A DNA stretch of 10,704 nucleotides from Candidatus Latescibacterota bacterium (GTDB taxonomy: Bacteria; Latescibacterota; UBA2968; UBA8231). The DNA is taken from NCBI GenBank assembly GCA_022825185.1, contig JAJDYK010000215.1, positions 1 to 10,704 of the forward strand, in the 5' to 3' direction. A program made the position numbers and the translations under genes. Shown one piece after another: positions 104 through 10,704 of this stretch. Position 1 is the stretch's first letter; every line of letters begins with the position of its first letter. The notes under the pieces were generated by a model. It had not been told where the DNA came from, searched no databases, and saw nothing but the letters and a program-made list of their open reading frames with translations.

Positions 104-991
104 TCATCCCCAGCTTTCCTGCCGGATCTGCTTTTTGTCCAATCCGTGCTCCTGTAAGAGCGCGACCATGTTTTCGACGAAGCGCGGCTCGGGAGTCTCG
201 CCTTTGGCTCTAGCTGCCCGGCGCTCGTAGGGCGTGATGCCTGGGCCGCAGCTATAGGCCATCACCTTGGAGGGATCGGGGGCGACTTCGCGCAAGAGTT
301 CCCCAGAGATGCGCCCTTGGCGGGCACCGCGGATGCCGCTTGGGTCCTCGCGGGTGATGCAGTGGATTACGTCGAGTTGGTCGGGGTACTGATCCCGCAA
401 CTCCTCGAATTCCTCGAAGTAAATGACGTCGCCGCGCGTCTTGTTGCTAAATAGCAAGGTGTGCCTAAGCGGATCGCCGCGGTGTAGGCTTTCCTTGATC
501 AAGCTCCTGTTGGGCACGATGCCGCTGCCAGCGCATACGTGGACAATGTGATCAGTGCGCTCGCAGACATCGGTGGGAAAGGTGTACGCGCCGGTAAAAC
601 CGCTGATGACCAGCCGCCGACCCTCTTGGATGTAGTACGTCAACAGTGGCGACAAAAGCGGCGGGTACGGCGTCTCACCGCTCTCGTAGCGCTCTTCTTT
701 GATGGTGATGGCGAGGTGCTCCTCGTGAGGCGCAGAAGCCATGGAATAGGCTCGCGGCTTTTCCCGCTGCCCCTTTTGATCTTCTAAATAGGCGGTGAAG
801 TGCTCCAATTCGCCGAACTGATGCGGATCAATGGTGCAGAAGTGGCCGGCCTCGTATTCGATCAGTTCTTCGCCAGCCGACATAAAGAGCGTGGTGGTAT
901 CTGGGGTATCTCGGCGCACGTGGACGACCTCCACCTCCATCTCCCGGACTCTCCGCCTTGGCGTGCGCGTTGTTTGCGCTGAGGTGCTCAT
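104..991 (-). CDS. FNR-type FAD/NAD(P)H oxidoreductase without a ferredoxin domain
   Basis: A 295-residue ferredoxin-NADP reductase-like protein that should carry electrons from NAD(P)H through FAD to an unknown acceptor in the cytoplasm. The FAD-binding barrel contains R80-AYSMAS, the RxYS signature that grips the flavin. The nucleotide-binding domain has CAGSGIVP at about 153-160 and SCGPG at 247-251. The C-terminus QESWG is where PaaE/KshB/BenC-like reductases end their FNR module, and no [2Fe-2S] ferredoxin domain follows, so an external partner is needed. The start is 1 nt after the stop of the DUF5069 selenoprotein gene (TAG-T-ATG) and has only a weak ribosome site, which suggests coupled translation. 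An alternative start is Met18 (938-940), where the conserved fold begins and a GGAG lies about 10 nt upstream; the first 17 residues are Thr/Arg-rich and may not be translated. Substrate unknown. Confidence 0.85.
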   Translation of the reverse strand: MSTSAQTTRTPRRRVREMEVEVVHVRRDTPDTTTLFMSAGEELIEYEAGHFCTIDPHQFGELEHFTAYLEDQKGQREKPRAYSMASAPHEEHLAITIKEERYESGETPYPPLLSPLLTYYIQEGRRLVISGFTGAYTFPTDVCERTDHIVHVCAGSGIVPNRSLIKESLHRGDPLRHTLLFSNKTRGDVIYFEEFEELRDQYPDQLDVIHCITREDPSGIRGARQGRISGELLREVAPDPSKVMAYSCGPGITPYERRAARAKGETPEPRFVENMVALLQEHGLDKKQIRQESWG

Positions 992-992
992 A

Positions 993-1259
993 CTAGTGCT
1001 TTCTGGCCAAGTGCGCTTTCATCTTCTCGATCAGGGCATCGTCGTCTGCGGACGAGGCCACCATCTCCTCGAATGCTGCGGCTGTCAACTCCACTTCCTC
1101 CAGGAAGTGCTTGTCGGCCGGTCAGGGAAATACGTAGTCGCCGATGCGTTGCTGCTGGTGCGCCCGCGCCTTGTCGGCTATGCGCGCCAGCCAGGGGATA
1201 TCGCCGATGATCATACCCCGGGCTCGGGGCTTGAAGTCGAGAGTGTTCCACTCGCTCAT
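993..1259 (-). CDS. DUF5069-family selenoprotein, TGA at codon 46 read as selenocysteine
   Basis: An 88-residue protein if the in-frame TGA at 1122-1124 is decoded as selenocysteine. The N-terminal half has the DUF5069 pattern: PRARG, IPWLARIADKARAH, then IGDYVFP. Family members, as I recall them, continue with Cys-Pro-Leu-Asp after a GEY-(I/H)-(Y/F)-x segment; here the sequence is U46-P-A-D-K-H-F-L, so the TGA sits exactly at the conserved Cys. The frame stays open for 42 more codons with a helical C-terminus of family character (AAAFEEMV, DDALIEKMKAHL) and ends at TAG 993-995. A strong GGAGGA lies 5 nt before the ATG. The start overlaps the kinase stop (ATGA). A perfect hairpin follows the TGA. 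The function of DUF5069 is unknown to me; a Cys-to-Sec replacement would suggest a redox or metal-binding role. Alternatives are a nonsense mutation or sequencing error, which the hairpin and the second case in this window argue against. Confidence 0.82.
1092..1124 (-). promoter_or_regulatory. Candidate bacterial SECIS element of the DUF5069 selenoprotein gene
   Basis: On the minus-strand mRNA the UGA (1122-1124) is followed after 12 nt by CACUUCC, a loop UGGA, and GGAAGUG (1092-1109). This is a perfect 7-bp stem with a tetraloop. The loop begins 19 nt after the UGA and has G at its second position, which meets the general bacterial SECIS rules as I know them (upper stem close behind UGA, G in the first two loop positions, loop 16-37 nt away). 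Lower pairing is possible between CAA and UUG and between GGC and GCC further out, interrupted by mismatches. The same bases code for K-H-F-L-E-E-V, so the hairpin lies inside the reading frame, as SelB-dependent elements in bacteria do. Confidence 0.75.
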
Positions 1260-2293
1260 AGGGTTCCTCCGCGTGGTGACAAACAAAACTGCAACCGGCT
1301 TCTCAACTCGGTCGCGCTTGGGTCTGTGCTCAGGCCCTCGGCCAGCATGGCCGCGCATTGCCGCAGCCGCGCAAGGGGCCTTTTCCAGTGTTGGCGCAGG
1401 GCCAGCGCGTGCGGCTCGCCGTCGAGAGCCGCGCACAACAGGGCCGCGCTGTTTAAAAGAAAAAAGATGCGGTGATAATCGAGTGCCCGCGCACCGTCGC
1501 TGCGCCCGGACGCCTCGGCGTATAAACGCGCTGCGGACGCGTCCAGCAGCGAGCGCATGCGTCCGTCCTGCCGCCCGCTACCCATACTTGAAGTATACTG
1601 CGTCAAGCGCCTTTCCGTCCAGTCCCAACCAATTTTGGCAAATTCGAGGAAGTAAACGTGCGTGCCCTTCGGCGCGACGATTGCGTTGCGCGCGTTGTAA
1701 TCTACGCTGCCCAGCGCGGCTGGCCGCGCCGCCAGCCAGCCGTGCATGGTTTCGAGCAGTGGCTGTATCCCAGCGTCTAAGGACTGCTGGAGACGGCGGC
1801 AGAACTGTTCGATGCCAGCGTGCGCCCGCGCTCCTGCTTCGTCCCAAGCGGCGGCGAGGGCTGAGCGGTTGGCGCTTGGCACTACCCTCGGTGCCAACTG
1901 GTCGGCGCGTTGGGAGAACGCGTGCTCAATGGCGCACAGCCCGCGTATGGCCTGTATCGTCGTTGCACGGTCCCCGTCCTGAATGGCGTCGTCGAGGGTG
2001 CGGTCGCCGACCCATTGCAAGAAGATGCAGTGGGCTTCCCGATCAATACCTAGCACGACCGGCACCGGACAACTCGCTCTGTGCAGTATGCCGAGCACGT
2101 CGCGTTCGACCTCCAACAGGTCGTAAGCCGTGCCCTGCGTCAGCCTCCCAAAGGGCTGATGCTTGACCACGACCTTGCGGCCGTCTGCGTCCTCGACGCG
2201 CCAGACTCCTTCGGCGAGCGGAGCGATCGCGCGGATGGGTGGATGACCCGCGCGTACATAGGCTGCGGTCGCCGCGCAGTCGGCGAGGCTCAT
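1256..2293 (-). CDS. Aminoglycoside phosphotransferase-like (APH fold) kinase, divergent active site
   Basis: A 345-residue protein with the layout of the APH/choline-kinase superfamily. The N-lobe has GVWRVEDADGRKVVVKH (about 29-45) with K44 as the likely ATP-binding lysine and E61/E63 in the following helix. The hinge is CIFLQWVGDRTLDDAI (89-104). The catalytic segment reads SVDYNARNAIV (196-206), followed by FLEFAKIGWDWTERRL (215-230). Compared with the usual HGDxxxxN and IDWE motifs, D198 and N203 are kept, but the residue two before D198 is Ser rather than His, and the metal-binding Asp of the last strand appears as Glu217. Substrate unknown; antibiotic modification should not be assumed, as such kinases often act on sugars, choline or other small molecules. 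The start at MSLADC overlaps the lectin stop by 4 nt (ATGA), and its own stop overlaps the next start the same way, so translation is probably coupled. Reading further upstream in this frame only shadows the lectin gene. Confidence 0.78.
   Translation of the reverse strand: MSLADCAATAAYVRAGHPPIRAIAPLAEGVWRVEDADGRKVVVKHQPFGRLTQGTAYDLLEVERDVLGILHRASCPVPVVLGIDREAHCIFLQWVGDRTLDDAIQDGDRATTIQAIRGLCAIEHAFSQRADQLAPRVVPSANRSALAAAWDEAGARAHAGIEQFCRRLQQSLDAGIQPLLETMHGWLAARPAALGSVDYNARNAIVAPKGTHVYFLEFAKIGWDWTERRLTQYTSSMGSGRQDGRMRSLLDASAARLYAEASGRSDGARALDYHRIFFLLNSAALLCAALDGEPHALALRQHWKRPLARLRQCAAMLAEGLSTDPSATELRSRLQFCLSPRGGTL
1265..1270 (-). promoter_or_regulatory. Strong Shine-Dalgarno site of the DUF5069 selenoprotein gene
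   Basis: GGAGGA on the minus strand, 5 nt before the ATG at 1257-1259 and inside the 3' end of the kinase gene. It is the strongest ribosome site in the leftward operon. It fixes the start of the TGA-interrupted gene and indicates that the N-terminal half is actively translated rather than being a decayed remnant. Confidence 0.7.
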
Positions 2294-6078: not shown

Positions 6079-6875
6079 CAGATGTTGTAGTGTAGCCCGC
6101 ACTCTTTGTGGTCGTCTGCGTCGTCGGTTTGTTCGTTGAACCAACGCCAGCGACCGTTGCGCTTGGGCTCGTCGGGCCGGATCGGGGTGGAGCAGATGAT
6201 GCAGCCAAAGCTCGGGTAGCCTTGGCCGTAGAGCGGATGCACTGGCAGGTCGTTTGCCCGCGTAAACTCCATTAGCTCCTCTTCGCTCCAATCGACCAAT
6301 GGATTGAGCTTGACTATTTTGCGCCGGGTGCCGTACTCGTCGATTAAGACCGCCTTCTTGGCCGTCTGCTGGCGATGCGCGGACTGGTCCCAGCGCTGCC
6401 CTGAAATCCAGCAGTCCGCGGTCTGCAACAGCGCGTTGTTAGGCCATTCCTTCCGCACTTGGCAGCAGTGTTCCTGTTTTTCCTTGGAGTCGAAAAACAA
6501 GTACTCGCCGTGGCGTGCGACCATCCGCTCGACATCGCCGCGCTTGGGTTGGACGACCTCAAAGTGGCAGCCGTAGCGCGCTCTGACTTCCTCCATAAAG
6601 GCGTACGTCTCAGGGTGGAGACGGTGGGTGTCGATGGTGGCAAAGCGCAAGTTCAGCCCCATCTCCGTCGCCATGTGGATCATCGCCACGCCAGTGTACT
6701 GGAAGCTGGTGTTGAGTACGGCCCGGCCGGGAAAGGTCTCGCTGGCCCAGCGCAAAAGATCCTCGGCGGGCATCTGCTCCAAGCCTAGGTCGCGGAGGTA
6801 GTGCGCTAGCTGCTGATCGCGCTCTTCGCTGGACGAGGACACCAGCGTTTTTTGGTCTGCGGTCATGGCGGTCAT
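6078..6875 (-). CDS. cysH: Assimilatory APS/PAPS reductase (CysH), iron-sulfur type
   Basis: A 265-residue sulfonucleotide reductase that reduces adenylyl sulfate (APS) or PAPS to sulfite in assimilatory sulfate reduction. The PP-loop-type ATPase fold shows RAVLNTSFQYTGVAMIHM (51-68), IDTHRLHPETYAF (81-93) and WISGQRWDQSAHR (156-168). Cysteines C137, C138, C225 and C228 form the CC-x(n)-CxxC set that binds a [4Fe-4S] cluster, which favours APS as substrate. The C-terminal E258-C-G-L-H262 contains the catalytic Cys that forms the enzyme-thiosulfonate and needs a thioredoxin-like reductant. The start is put at the ATG 6873-6875, the next in-frame ATG being 6864-6866; residues encoded further upstream do not look conserved. 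There is no strong Shine-Dalgarno. The gene after it encodes a UxxC thioredoxin-fold selenoprotein, a plausible partner. Confidence 0.93.
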   Translation of the reverse strand: MTAMTADQKTLVSSSSEERDQQLAHYLRDLGLEQMPAEDLLRWASETFPGRAVLNTSFQYTGVAMIHMATEMGLNLRFATIDTHRLHPETYAFMEEVRARYGCHFEVVQPKRGDVERMVARHGEYLFFDSKEKQEHCCQVRKEWPNNALLQTADCWISGQRWDQSAHRQQTAKKAVLIDEYGTRRKIVKLNPLVDWSEEELMEFTRANDLPVHPLYGQGYPSFGCIICSTPIRPDEPKRNGRWRWFNEQTDDADDHKECGLHYNI

Positions 6876-6882
6876 AGACTTT

Positions 6883-6911
6883 ATAATGTAAGGATAAGAG
6901 CAGATTGGAAA
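6883..6911 (-). promoter_or_regulatory. Possible sigma70-type promoter of cysH
   Basis: On the minus strand, TTTCCA (6906-6911) and CATTAT (6883-6888) are separated by 17 bases in an AT-rich patch. Transcription would begin about 7 nt later, next to the ATG at 6875, so the mRNA would be almost leaderless, in line with the missing ribosome site. Both boxes are only partial matches, so this is a weak call. Confidence 0.25.
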
Positions 6912-7009
6912 AATAGATCGCCGAAGTCCGCATCGCGTGCAAGACTGGATGGCACGCCCGCGTATAGTTTGCCCTTGCCATTGTTTCAATGCCAAGAGAG
7001 TTTTTTCAA

Positions 7010-7022
7010 GGTTGAGTCAACC
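7010..7022. repeat. 13-bp palindrome upstream of the ABC transporter operon
   Basis: GGTTGAGTCAACC is perfectly symmetric (two 6-base arms around one G) and lies 24 bases before the start of the first ABC gene, in the 171-base divergent spacer (6876-7046). It is of operator size and could bind a dimeric regulator. No matching second copy was seen nearby. Apart from this and the weak cysH promoter, nothing else is evident in the spacer. Confidence 0.3.
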
Positions 7023-7046
7023 CATTTTGCGGGGCCTTACCAAGAC

Positions 7047-9281
7047 ATGAACGCGCAAAAACTGCTAGAATCAGCCGACGCGACCGCGACCGCGCGGATT
7101 GCCGCTGTTCTCCCCGCTGAGGAGGAGGTGCTCATCCGCGCCTCGACGGATTTGGCCGCGGACGGGCGCTTTGGCCGCCAGTGGTTGGTCGCTACCGAGC
7201 ATCGCGTCCTCGTCGTGCCCGCTCAGGGCGAGGTCGTCGATATCCCACTCGCCGCGCTGGCCGAGGTGCGCACCGACGCGCTCGTCGGTGGCGGCCAGTT
7301 GGAGATCGAGCGAGTGGATGCGCCGACCTTGTCGCTGAGCTATACCAGCTCGGAAGCCGAAAAGATGTCCGAGGTGGCGCGGGGTTTGGAGCAGTTGCGT
7401 CAGGGGCAGCCGTTTGCCGTCAATGGGCACTTGGACCGAACCCGCTGCGAGAGTTGCGACCGGCTCTTGCCGGAGAAAAACGGCATCTGTCCGGCGTGCA
7501 TCAAGAAACTGGCGACCCTCAAGCGCATTGCCAGCTATCTCGGTCCGTACAAGCTCAAGGCGGGCGTCTTGGCCTTCGCCTCCATTGCCACTACGGTCGC
7601 GGAGTTGGCTCCACCGCTGATTACCAAGCGCATCGTCGATGAGGTGTTGGTCCCAGTGGAGGGCCAGGCTACGGGGTTTGACGAGCGCATCCACCTCTTG
7701 GGCCTATTCGTCGTGGCCTTGGTCGGCGTCCGCTTCTCGGCGTGGGTGGCCGAATGGGCCCACGGCTGGATTGCTACTTGGCTCGGCGCCCAGCTCACCG
7801 CAGATATTCGCTCGAACCTCTATCGCCGGTTGGAGATGCTGTCCTTGCAGTTTTACGACAAGCGCAAGGTCGGCTCCCTCATCTCGCGGGCCACTCGCGA
7901 CGCCGGCATGTTGCAGGACTTCCTCGTCGATGGTTTGCCCTATATCGTCATCAACGGCCTGATGGTATTTGGCATCCTCGGGTTTTTGTTTTGGATGAGT
8001 TGGTCGTTGAGCCTATACGTGTTGATACCCGTGCCGCTGACCATGGTATGGGGGGTGATTTTTTGGAAGCGGCTGCGCGGATTTTTCGTCAAATGGGGCC
8101 AGGTCTGGTCTGGCCTGACCGAGCGCACGGTGGAGACGCTTTCCGGCATCCGCGTGGTCAAGGCATTTGCCCAGGAGGATCGGGAAATAGCGGCCTTTGC
8201 CAAGCCCAATGGCCGGCTGCGCGAAGTTGCCGAAAAGACCGCGGTAAATCGCGGCGTATTCTTCGCTACCATCACGTTCTTGACGGGTTTGGGGGTCTTG
8301 GTAGTATGGCTGCTCGGCGGGCTGCAAGTCCTCGGCGACAAGATGACCTTGGGCACGCTGTTGGCCTTTTACTCGTATATGTGGCTGTTCTACGGCCCCT
8401 TGGAGTGGTTCGGCCAAGTCAATTCCTGGATGTCGCGGGCCTTTGCCGGAGCCGAGCGCATCTTCGAGGTCATCGACACCCAGCCCGAGGCGTACGAAGA
8501 CCCGACCGCAAAGCGGGTGCCGCGCATGAAAGGGGGCATTCGCTTCGAGGGCGTCACCTTTGGCTACGACAAGAGCAAGCCCGTGCTGAAGGATTTTGAC
8601 TTGGACATCCAGCCGGGCGAGATGATCGGCCTCGTGGGCAAGTCCGGGGTCGGCAAGACGACGACGGTCAACCTCATCGCCCGGTTCTACGACGTCGATT
8701 ACGGGGCCATTGCGATCGACGGGACCGACATCCGCAAAATTCATCTGCGCGACTTGCGCTCGCAGATCGGCATTGTGCTGCAGGAGCCGGTGCTTTTTTC
8801 CGGCACCATTGCCGAGAACATCGGCTACGGCCGGCCCGGCTCTTCCTTTGCGGACATTATGGCGGCCGCCCGCGCCGCCAACGCCCACAACTTCATCATG
8901 GCCAAGCCCGACGGCTATGAAACCCAAGTCGGAGAGAAGGGGGCGGGGCTTTCGGGCGGGGAGCGCCAGCGCGTCTCCATCGCCCGCGCCATACTCCACA
9001 ACCCGCGCATATTGATCCTCGACGAAGCCACGGCCTCAGTCGATGTGGAGACCGAGTTGCAGATCCAGGAGGCGATTCAGCGGCTCATTGAGGGCCGCAC
9101 CACCGTGGCCATTGCCCACCGACTTTCGACGCTGCGCAACGCCGACCGGCTGATGGTCCTCGACGACGGTCGCATTGTCGAGCAGGGGACGCACGCAGAG
9201 CTTATGGCGAAGCAGGGGACCTTTTACGAGTTGGTCAATTTGCAAAGAGAAGTGGCCGAGATCATCGCCATTAAGGAATAG
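7047..9281 (+). CDS. ABC exporter half-transporter with N-terminal PH-like domain and zinc ribbon
   Basis: A 744-residue fused permease/ATPase of the type IV ABC exporter class (MsbA/LmrA/BmrA-like). Residues about 1-125 form a beta-rich domain resembling bacterial PH domains (RQWLVATEHRVLVV, then IPLAALAEVRTDALVGGGQLEIE). A zinc ribbon follows with C134, C137, C148 and C151. The six membrane helices lie roughly at 165-190, 212-235, 295-317, 320-341, 402-428 and 432-452, with the coupling segment SGIRVVKAFAQE at 366-377. The ATPase has Walker A GKSGVGKT (531-538), Q-loop Q579, signature LSGGE (635-639), Walker B ILILDE (655-660), D-loop SVD and switch H691, so it should hydrolyse ATP. The start ATG at 7047 has only a weak ribosome site; upstream codons in frame belong to the spacer. 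The next gene, a paralog, begins 7 nt after its stop, so a heterodimer is likely. The substrate is unknown. Confidence 0.9.
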   Translation: MNAQKLLESADATATARIAAVLPAEEEVLIRASTDLAADGRFGRQWLVATEHRVLVVPAQGEVVDIPLAALAEVRTDALVGGGQLEIERVDAPTLSLSYTSSEAEKMSEVARGLEQLRQGQPFAVNGHLDRTRCESCDRLLPEKNGICPACIKKLATLKRIASYLGPYKLKAGVLAFASIATTVAELAPPLITKRIVDEVLVPVEGQATGFDERIHLLGLFVVALVGVRFSAWVAEWAHGWIATWLGAQLTADIRSNLYRRLEMLSLQFYDKRKVGSLISRATRDAGMLQDFLVDGLPYIVINGLMVFGILGFLFWMSWSLSLYVLIPVPLTMVWGVIFWKRLRGFFVKWGQVWSGLTERTVETLSGIRVVKAFAQEDREIAAFAKPNGRLREVAEKTAVNRGVFFATITFLTGLGVLVVWLLGGLQVLGDKMTLGTLLAFYSYMWLFYGPLEWFGQVNSWMSRAFAGAERIFEVIDTQPEAYEDPTAKRVPRMKGGIRFEGVTFGYDKSKPVLKDFDLDIQPGEMIGLVGKSGVGKTTTVNLIARFYDVDYGAIAIDGTDIRKIHLRDLRSQIGIVLQEPVLFSGTIAENIGYGRPGSSFADIMAAARAANAHNFIMAKPDGYETQVGEKGAGLSGGERQRVSIARAILHNPRILILDEATASVDVETELQIQEAIQRLIEGRTTVAIAHRLSTLRNADRLMVLDDGRIVEQGTHAELMAKQGTFYELVNLQREVAEIIAIKE

Positions 9282-9288
9282 ACCATCC

Positions 9289-10704
9289 ATGTCCACCTTT
9301 TTGGAAAATCTGCCGCACGCCGTCGAGGCCAAAGTCGAATCGCGCAAGGGCCGCGAGGAGCCAGTCCTGATCCAAGTTGCCACGGATATGGCTGGCGAGG
9401 ACCGCTTTGAGCAGCGCTGGTTGGTCGTAACGGCGAAGCGCCTGATGGTCCTCGATCCCAACGGCACAAGTGGCGACGAGGAGTTTTCGCTGCAAGCGGT
9501 TAAGTCCGCTCGCATTGAGGCGCTCGTCGGCGGTGGGCGCTTAGAAGTGGAACGAGAAGAAGGCGCACCGACGCATCTGTACTACTCCAATTCTCTCGCG
9601 TCCAAATTCGCCGAGGTCGCCGAGGGCATCGAACAGCTCAAAAAGGGCCAGGACCTCAACCTGCCCCACGAACTGGACCGCACGCACTGCGAACAATGCG
9701 GGCGCCGCCTGCCCGAAATAGGTGGGATATGCCCGGTCTGCATTGCCAAGTTCGATACCTTTAAGCGGCTGATCGGCTACATGCTGCCCTATCGATTTCA
9801 GCTAGTCTTGTTGCTGGGCCTGACCGTGTTGTCCTCGCTGTTGGAGTTGGCACCGCCCTATATCGTCAAGCATCTGATTGACGATGTACTCGTCCCCGGC
9901 ACGGAAGCCAACCTACTCTACTGGCTGGTCGGCGGCCTATTCGCAATTGGCGTCGTCGAGTGGTGCGTCGGCGTGGTGCGCCGCTGGCTCAACGTCCGGG
10001 TCGGCTTCCGCGCCATTGAGCACTTGCGTACGGACTTGTTCAGGGCGCTTCAGTATTTGCCTTTGCGCTTTTACGACAAGCGCAAGGTCGGCGCGTTGAT
10101 CTCCCGCATGAACAACGACTCGGAAATGGTCGAAGACTACCTGCTCTTTGACATGCCCTATATCGTCTCCAATGCCGCGATGATTGTCGGTATCCTGGGG
10201 CTGCTGTTCTACATGAACTGGGAGCTGACCCTGTACGTGCTGGCCCCGGTGCCGCCGATTATCATTGGCTCGAGCCTGATCTGGAATCGCCTGCAGCGCT
10301 TCTGGGGCCGTTGGTCGGCGCGCTGGTCGCGGCTTACTACGCATCTCAACGAGTCGATCTCCGGCATCCGCGTGGTTAAGGCTTTTGCGCAAGAGCACCG
10401 CGAGTCCGAGCGCTTTGATCAGCGCAACCACGCCTTGCGCCAAATCAGCGTCAGCGCCGAGCGCTCGTGGTTGGTGTTCTTTATGGTGACCAACTTCTTT
10501 ATGAGTTTTGGCGGATTTTTCGTGTGGTATTTCGGCGGTCAGCAGATCGTTGGCGGCGAGCTATCGCTGGGGGAGCTGATGGCCTTTATCGCCTATCTGT
10601 GGATGCTCTACCACCCGCTCAAGTGGTTTGGCGATTTCTACAGCTTCATGGTGCGGGCCTTTGCCGGTGCCGAGCGCATTTTTGAAATCGTCGATGCGCC
10701 CTCC
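9289..10704 (+). CDS. Second ABC exporter half-transporter, paralog of the preceding gene, 3' end outside the window
   Basis: The open frame starts at ATG 9289, with AAGGA about 11 nt upstream at the end of the preceding gene, and runs off the window after 472 codons. It repeats the architecture of the first ABC protein: PH-like domain (RWLVVTAKRLMVLD, then ARIEALVGGGRLEVE), zinc ribbon with C134, C137, C148 and C151 at the same residue numbers, then six membrane segments with the same RFYDKRKVGALISR and ISGIRVVKAFAQE sequences. The window stops at the linker AGAERIFEIVDAP just before the ATPase domain, so whether its Walker and signature motifs are intact cannot be judged. It most likely forms a heterodimeric exporter with its neighbour and arose by tandem duplication. 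Substrate unknown. Confidence 0.88.
   Translation, partial: MSTFLENLPHAVEAKVESRKGREEPVLIQVATDMAGEDRFEQRWLVVTAKRLMVLDPNGTSGDEEFSLQAVKSARIEALVGGGRLEVEREEGAPTHLYYSNSLASKFAEVAEGIEQLKKGQDLNLPHELDRTHCEQCGRRLPEIGGICPVCIAKFDTFKRLIGYMLPYRFQLVLLLGLTVLSSLLELAPPYIVKHLIDDVLVPGTEANLLYWLVGGLFAIGVVEWCVGVVRRWLNVRVGFRAIEHLRTDLFRALQYLPLRFYDKRKVGALISRMNNDSEMVEDYLLFDMPYIVSNAAMIVGILGLLFYMNWELTLYVLAPVPPIIIGSSLIWNRLQRFWGRWSARWSRLTTHLNESISGIRVVKAFAQEHRESERFDQRNHALRQISVSAERSWLVFFMVTNFFMSFGGFFVWYFGGQQIVGGELSLGELMAFIAYLWMLYHPLKWFGDFYSFMVRAFAGAERIFEIVDAPS

Follow-up and report, generated by a model that had tools for sequence, protein, structure and literature searches.

A DUF5069 protein of a Latescibacterota bacterium as a probable selenoprotein

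The DNA analysed here, a stretch of 10,704 nucleotides from a Candidatus Latescibacterota bacterium (contig JAJDYK010000215.1, hereafter called the window), carries on its minus strand, at positions 993..1259, a DUF5069 gene that is interrupted by an in-frame TGA. As judged from sequence comparison, this gene most probably encodes a selenoprotein, with selenocysteine (Sec) inserted at UGA codon 46, and we give this reading a probability of about 95%. A DUF5069 selenoprotein had been proposed in the initial annotation of the window, and the proposal is now supported by the position of the codon on a conserved Cys column, by a covarying hairpin, by the Sec machinery of the nearest genome, G001, and by the conservation of the TGA across two phyla.

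In the mechanism that we propose, SelB with Sec-tRNA(Sec) would bind the hairpin located at 1109-1092 and would enable recoding of the UGA at 1124-1122, which the ribosome would then read as selenocysteine. The predicted product would be an 88-residue helical DUF5069 protein, in which Sec stands just before a helix, in a P-U-P-A-D motif, and replaces the Cys of the relatives.

The reading frame and its codon 46

When the minus strand is read directly, the frame runs from an ATG at 1259-1257 through 45 codons to the TGA (1122..1124, minus strand), and then through 42 further codons to a TAG at 995-993, exactly as had been described, so that the product has 88 residues with U46. The Shine-Dalgarno sequence that had been noticed before the ATG is also there, as a GGAGG read at 1270-1266 (minus strand), 6 nt upstream. 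Standard translation of the gene stops at TGA codon 46, and UGA is otherwise a normal stop in the window, where four other genes have TGA as their terminator and encode Trp by TGG.

The window protein matches DUF5069 (PF16798) with an E-value of 1.2e-12 and a score of 48.6 bits, for a Pfam gathering cut-off of 27, the match spanning profile positions 4-79 of 133 and thus a part rather than the whole of the domain. It belongs to a short DUF5069 subfamily, whose listed relatives are 49-121 aa long, the protein search having admitted relatives of 0.55-1.75 times the query length only.

Codon 46 was compared in 80 loci from named genomes, the best 80 of 100 relatives found by scan. It is TGA in 65 of them, TGC in 10 and TGT in 5, without any other codon, the Sec codon of the window aligning with the TGC or TGT of the Cys homologues. 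Pro at position -1 and Asp at position +3 are found in all these best 80 loci (80/80). The distribution by label, still among the best 80 of 100, is 49 TGA and one Cys for the 50 Poribacteria loci, 16 TGA and seven Cys for the 23 loci labelled Latescibacterota, Gemmatimonadetes, a few other phyla or none, and exclusively Cys (7/7) for those of Bacillota/Clostridia, Chloroflexi and one unnamed bacterium. The residue following U is Gly or Ala in eight of the 65 Sec forms of this best-80 set, and that following Cys is Pro in all 15 Cys forms. Some bins labelled Alphaproteobacteria or Gemmatimonadetes (L031, which is JAJDWH010000054.1, L028 and L030) contain near-identical genes and neighbours, and their labels or binning look wrong.

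At the protein level, the prediction that U46 would fall on the conserved Cys column was checked by alignment and holds: among 122 distinct aligned database homologues, 112 have Cys at this column, eight have Trp and two are gapped. These were gathered from a first protein search (46 homologues, with 43 Cys, one Trp and two not reaching the column) and from a profile search that found 2837 proteins, of which the best 120 were listed and 77 aligned (69 Cys and eight Trp), one protein being common to both alignment sets. The Trp-containing proteins are P0076, P0094, P0045, P0101, P0103, P0113, P0116 and P0118. As the codons of the loci are TGA, TGC or TGT only, these eight entries are most simply read as TGA translated with a code in which TGA specifies Trp (code 4).

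The part of the frame that follows the TGA is under purifying selection. Between the window and nine of the nearer TGA loci, it displays a pN of 0-0.111 and a pS of 0.113-0.585, the corresponding values being 0-0.105 and 0.100-0.533 for the part that precedes the TGA; in both parts, changes thus occur mainly at silent sites.

The hairpin downstream of the TGA

A perfect 7-bp hairpin with a UGGA loop, 12 nt after the TGA, had been pointed out in the initial annotation, and it is found as such when positions 1109-1092 are read, the arms CACUUCC and GGAAGUG enclosing the loop UGGA. This candidate SECIS hairpin (1092..1109, minus strand) has its stem at 1109-1103/1098-1092, its loop at 1102-1099 and an energy of -8.4 kcal/mol. 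A search for TTCCTGGAGGAA finds it a single time in the window and not at all in 200 shuffles. Taken alone, the 53-nt fold around the hairpin is only mildly unusual (z of -1.9, with 8 of 200 shuffles as good), and it is therefore the comparative evidence that carries the case for the hairpin.

Among the best 80 of 100 relatives, the loop is TGGA in 65 of 65 TGA loci, at a spacing of 19 nt in 64 of them and of 22 nt in one, and the stem has all seven pairs formed in 41 and six in 24. The same loop is present in 84 of 84 further TGA genes, with 5 to 7 pairs, again at 19 nt in all of these except one (83 at 19 nt, one at 22 nt). In a Poribacteria locus that has an inserted codon (L102), the whole hairpin is kept, shifted three bases downstream.

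Covariation was analysed on 74 aligned TGA sequences, 67 of which are distinct. Over these 67 sequences, the 7-bp stem is 93.8% paired, as compared to 78.9 in shuffles, and the number of double-change cells is 49, versus 15.3 in shuffles (0/500 as high) and at most 11 in slid-partner controls. The stem covariation score reaches 0.298, versus 0.072 when shuffled and 0.132 for the best slid version. Of the five covariation measures, two stay at the level of shuffles, namely pairs changed on both sides (3 versus 3.0) and further pair types (8 versus 7.8). The signal is located in the outer three stem pairs. Counted from the loop, pair five is GC in 52 sequences, CG in 14 and AU in one, and pair six shows similar variation; the outermost pair does not form in 27 of the 67 sequences, and the inner four are nearly constant.

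Silent sites are fixed in the hairpin codons of the Sec loci, in a count that omits L102 for its insertion: TTC is used for Phe in 64/64, CTG for Leu in 64/64, GAG for Glu in 63/63 and GAA for Glu in 61/61. These codons vary in the 15 Cys loci, and Phe, Glu and Tyr elsewhere in the Sec genes use both of their codons. A chance hairpin is rejected on the basis of the covariation, the frozen silent sites and the absence of the hairpin sequence from the shuffles.

The geometry of the element can be set beside that of the bacterial SECIS (bSECIS) model, which, in the available part of a 2026 review, has a loop of 3-9 nt with G in the first two positions, a stem of 4-16 bp and a spacing of 16-37 nt, with an energy limit of -7.5 kcal/mol (PMC13188914). 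The window agrees with the geometry given there (loop TGGA, 7 bp and a spacing of 19 nt), and a model hairpin is present in 65/65 TGA loci. The energy limit given there is reached by the window and, for the hairpin alone, by 11 of the 65 TGA loci, 2 of the 15 Cys loci and 30 of 1300 control TGAs; an energy of -5 kcal/mol is reached by 63 of the 65 TGA loci. Because few TGA loci reach -7.5 kcal/mol, the case for a SECIS rests on comparison and not on energy. A search of the hairpin region against Rfam gave no match at E 1. The proposal that the hairpin is a SECIS is backed by the covariation and by the agreement with the bSECIS geometry. The real gene end is also a TGA in five Sec genes, and none of these has a stable SECIS-model hairpin after it (none found, or -2.3 kcal/mol at best).

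These features are those of bacterial SelB-dependent selenoproteins with a bSECIS, such as formate dehydrogenase and SelD, in which an in-frame UGA likewise stands at the Cys of relatives and is followed, just downstream, by a hairpin with G in the first two loop positions, here with a 4-nt loop, a 7-bp stem and a 19-nt spacing. The likeness extends to the genome, as selA, selB, selC and selD accompany the gene in G001.

Sec machinery, distribution and Sec/Cys exchange

The machinery was examined in G001, which shares 50% of the window's sampled 31-mers, rather than in the window's own assembly. The DUF5069 gene of G001 is 97% identical to that of the window, TGA included. The initial annotation had made the presence of selA, selB, selC and selD a test of its reading, and all are found in this nearest genome, with scores of 476 bits for selA, 353 bits for selB and 377 bits for selD, and with a tRNA-Sec of 70 bits whose anticodon is tca according to ARAGORN. 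The selD gene of G001 (L022) carries a TGA in frame, in CGG-U-ASK, which makes it a candidate selenoprotein gene in its own right, and UxxK is the Sec place listed for SelD in the part of the review available (PMC13188914).

A survey of two phyla, whose genomes overlap with the named loci above so that the two sets of counts are not additive, shows how widespread the TGA form is. In the phylum of G001 (64 genomes), 36 genomes have the TGA form, seven the Cys form, three only weak matches to longer relatives and 18 none; the codon at column 46 was read in all 36 TGA genomes and is TGA in each. For the 84 genomes of the Poribacteria phylum, the corresponding numbers are 71, six, three weak matches and four, and the 77 codons, all read, are TGA in 71, TGC in five and TGT in one. 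The TGA form is thus present in 107 of the 148 surveyed genomes, with the codon read in all 107. SelB is above the cut-off in 102 of these 107 genomes (35/36 in the G001 phylum and 67/71 in the Poribacteria phylum). Among the TGA genomes, G045 has a SelB fragment of 124 bits, below the cut-off, and G109, G110, G113 and G138 gave no SelB match at E 1e-62, a limit that hides fragments; for G109, a tRNA-Sec search at E 1e-9 was likewise negative among the 150 of 691 candidates that were scored. Cys forms occur both with and without SelB, which accompanies them in 6/7 genomes of the first phylum, 5/6 of Poribacteria and 3/7 of the others.

All these results bear on what the TGA could be if not a Sec codon. 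A real stop, leaving a pseudogene or a 45-residue truncated protein, would suit the standard translation that ends at this codon and a 49-residue database entry (P0047) that ends at the same place. We nevertheless consider it very improbable: 65 loci conserve the frame past the TGA, where changes per site are few for amino acids and more numerous at silent positions, and the hairpin is conserved at silent sites; a pseudogene, in particular, is rejected because pN is low relative to pS after the TGA across nine of the nearer TGA loci. A sequencing error is excluded, since separate assemblies give the same TGA in 65 of the 80 homologous loci (with L054 and L076 sharing one assembly). It is hardly credible, finally, that UGA would be decoded as tryptophan, or as some other standard amino acid, by a code change or by near-cognate suppression. 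The eight Trp-containing homologues among the 122 aligned would fit such a reading, but they look themselves like TGA translated under code 4, and the 15 loci without TGA among the best 80 of 100 have a Cys codon, never TGG. The presence of Sec machinery genes in G001 also argues against it, and a change of the genetic code to Trp is rejected because the codon column contains TGA, TGC and TGT only and because the window combines TGA stops with TGG for Trp. Insertion of Sec at codon 46 thus stands as the preferred reading.

Sec and Cys appear to have been exchanged repeatedly at this position. In a tree of 87 rows, at least five Sec/Cys changes are counted, three of them forced by well-supported branches; the tree is built on 78 columns, 26 of its 75 inner branches are starred, its bootstrap is not settled, and gain and loss cannot be told apart on it. 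One Cys gene, L036 (TGT, in genome G058), keeps the full 7-bp stem, with a loop changed to TACA. In G058, which is 86% complete, no SelA-family match exceeds 41 bits, SelB does not rise above the cut-off and a tRNA-Sec search at E 1e-9 is negative, and L036 is likely a relic of a Sec gene that turned into a Cys gene when the machinery was lost. A Poribacteria Cys form, L210 (in G070; the same locus as L057), has a TGGA loop at 19 nt with only five of the seven stem pairs, and the other five Poribacteria Cys forms that were read are without a TGGA loop.

A third residue is found in a paralogue of G001. L002 (364-1725, minus strand) is a 453-residue DUF5069 protein of three domains, matching the family with 247 bits, that shares with the window protein P11, R12, A25, R26, D29, K30, G40 and the Asp at +3, and differs from it by a Ser in place of Cys/Sec, preceded by two inserted residues, in all three domains. 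The Cys that had been called invariant is present in 112/122 of the aligned homologues, but the term does not extend to this paralogue, and position 46 would be Sec, Cys or Ser in the DUF5069 proteins examined. Long frames resembling L002 (about 420-450 aa), which are weak matches, are common in Poribacteria.

Protein model, gene neighbours and possible role

The structure model, computed with Cys in place of Sec (mean pLDDT of 90.8), is mainly helical and places U46 just before the helix 47-55. Among proteins of known structure, the one solid relative is 3omd from Leptospirillum rubarum, itself a DUF5069 protein without an assigned function, in which Cys-Pro-x-Asp is kept (profile E of 3e-17). 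Compared to 3omd and to the Cys forms, the window protein has Sec for Cys and is a protein of 88 residues that covers positions 4-79 of 133 of the profile. Among the best 80 of 100 relatives, further Cys are absent from 62 of 65 Sec proteins, counting the 40 residues before U and all of those after it. That a single Sec stands where a helix begins suggests a reactive selenol, one that would function without a resolving Cys and be reduced from outside.

In the window, the DUF5069 gene is closely flanked. The upstream gene (1256..2293, minus strand) is phosphotransferase-like, with an APH/choline kinase fold according to its model (pLDDT 91.4; best Foldseek match 8ahd, E 1.6e-7, TM 0.50), and the downstream one (104..991, minus strand) encodes an NAD-binding/FNR-like oxidoreductase (PF00175, E 2.9e-14). 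The stop TGA of the former overlaps the DUF5069 ATG as ATGA and the latter starts 1 nt past the DUF5069 stop TAG, so that the three genes look like one operon. The upstream gene has no Pfam family above the cut-off; it is a frequent neighbour of short DUF5069 genes in several phyla and could represent an unnamed family. Elsewhere in the window, two ABC exporters lie side by side on the plus strand (6852-9281 and 9175-10704); by eye, their N-terminal parts resemble each other, and they are perhaps a heterodimer or a tandem duplicate.

Among the best 80 of 100 relatives, a phosphotransferase-like gene immediately precedes DUF5069 in 22 loci, of which 18 are of Latescibacterota type and the others are the Cys forms L095, L098, L100 and L101, and thus reaches the Cys forms of Bacillota/Clostridia and Chloroflexi. 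The FNR-like oxidoreductase is the next gene in 17 of these best 80 loci, all of Latescibacterota type. Neither neighbour was found at the Poribacteria loci, in up to 3 kb on each side.

Our best guess at the role, a tentative one, is that Sec would be the catalytic nucleophile of a single-selenol redox enzyme. The Pro at -1 and the Asp at +3 of all 80 loci, the usual lack of further Cys and the place of U46 ahead of helix 47-55 speak for it. Because another Cys is usually absent, oxidised Sec would need an outside reductant, and for Latescibacterota the obvious candidate as electron donor is the FNR-like NAD(P)H oxidoreductase encoded next door. With similar caution, DUF5069 could be regarded as an enzyme family of helical, non-thioredoxin fold, with one nucleophilic Cys or Sec in P-C/U-x-x-D where a helix begins, performing redox chemistry without a resolving Cys. 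Against a redox role stand the differences in neighbours between phyla, a fold match to a protein whose function is unknown and the Ser paralogue. The main rival is that Sec is inserted and has a non-redox role, either as a metal or substrate ligand or as a group-transfer nucleophile linked to the phosphotransferase-like neighbour. This neighbour is present more widely than the oxidoreductase among the best 80 loci (22/80 versus 17/80), and the SxxD of the paralogue fits a nucleophile that does not need redox activity. We hold such a role to be only a little less likely than the redox one, considering that Poribacteria loci are without a phosphotransferase-like neighbour in the stretches examined and that most uncharacterised selenoproteins are judged likely redox in the available part of the review (PMC13188914).

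To our reading of the sequences, the Sec form of DUF5069 would constitute a new selenoprotein family, small, helical and usually without other Cys. In the part of the 2026 review that was available, 119 prokaryotic selenoprotein families are catalogued, and neither DUF5069 nor PF16798 appears among them, including in the whole of Table 1 (PMC13188914). No NCBIfam model matches the window protein at E 1. Literature searches, covering a minority of subscription journals and excluding all bioRxiv preprints, found no paper naming DUF5069 or PF16798 and none linking DUF5069 or Poribacteria with selenoproteins; the matches to '3omd' concern another abbreviation, judging by the listed counts. The claim that no Sec-containing DUF5069 protein had been described is thus borne out within these sources. 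Most characterised selenoproteins have a thioredoxin-like fold, according to the same available part of the review (PMC13188914), whereas the DUF5069 model is helical and the proteins usually have no second Cys.

Genes of this type are easily missed, since a standard gene caller ends them at the UGA, and some entries have apparently taken this codon for Trp. Their recognition names a likely active-site residue for a family whose function is unknown and for which a structure is available (3omd), and the role of this residue could be tested by a one-residue replacement in a Cys relative. The loci also provide a natural set of Sec/Cys exchanges, including a Cys locus in which the stem is kept and the loop is changed. 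If the redox reading is true, the Sec form would be a widespread selenoprotein of two uncultured phyla, and the repeated exchange of Sec and Cys would mark its active site.
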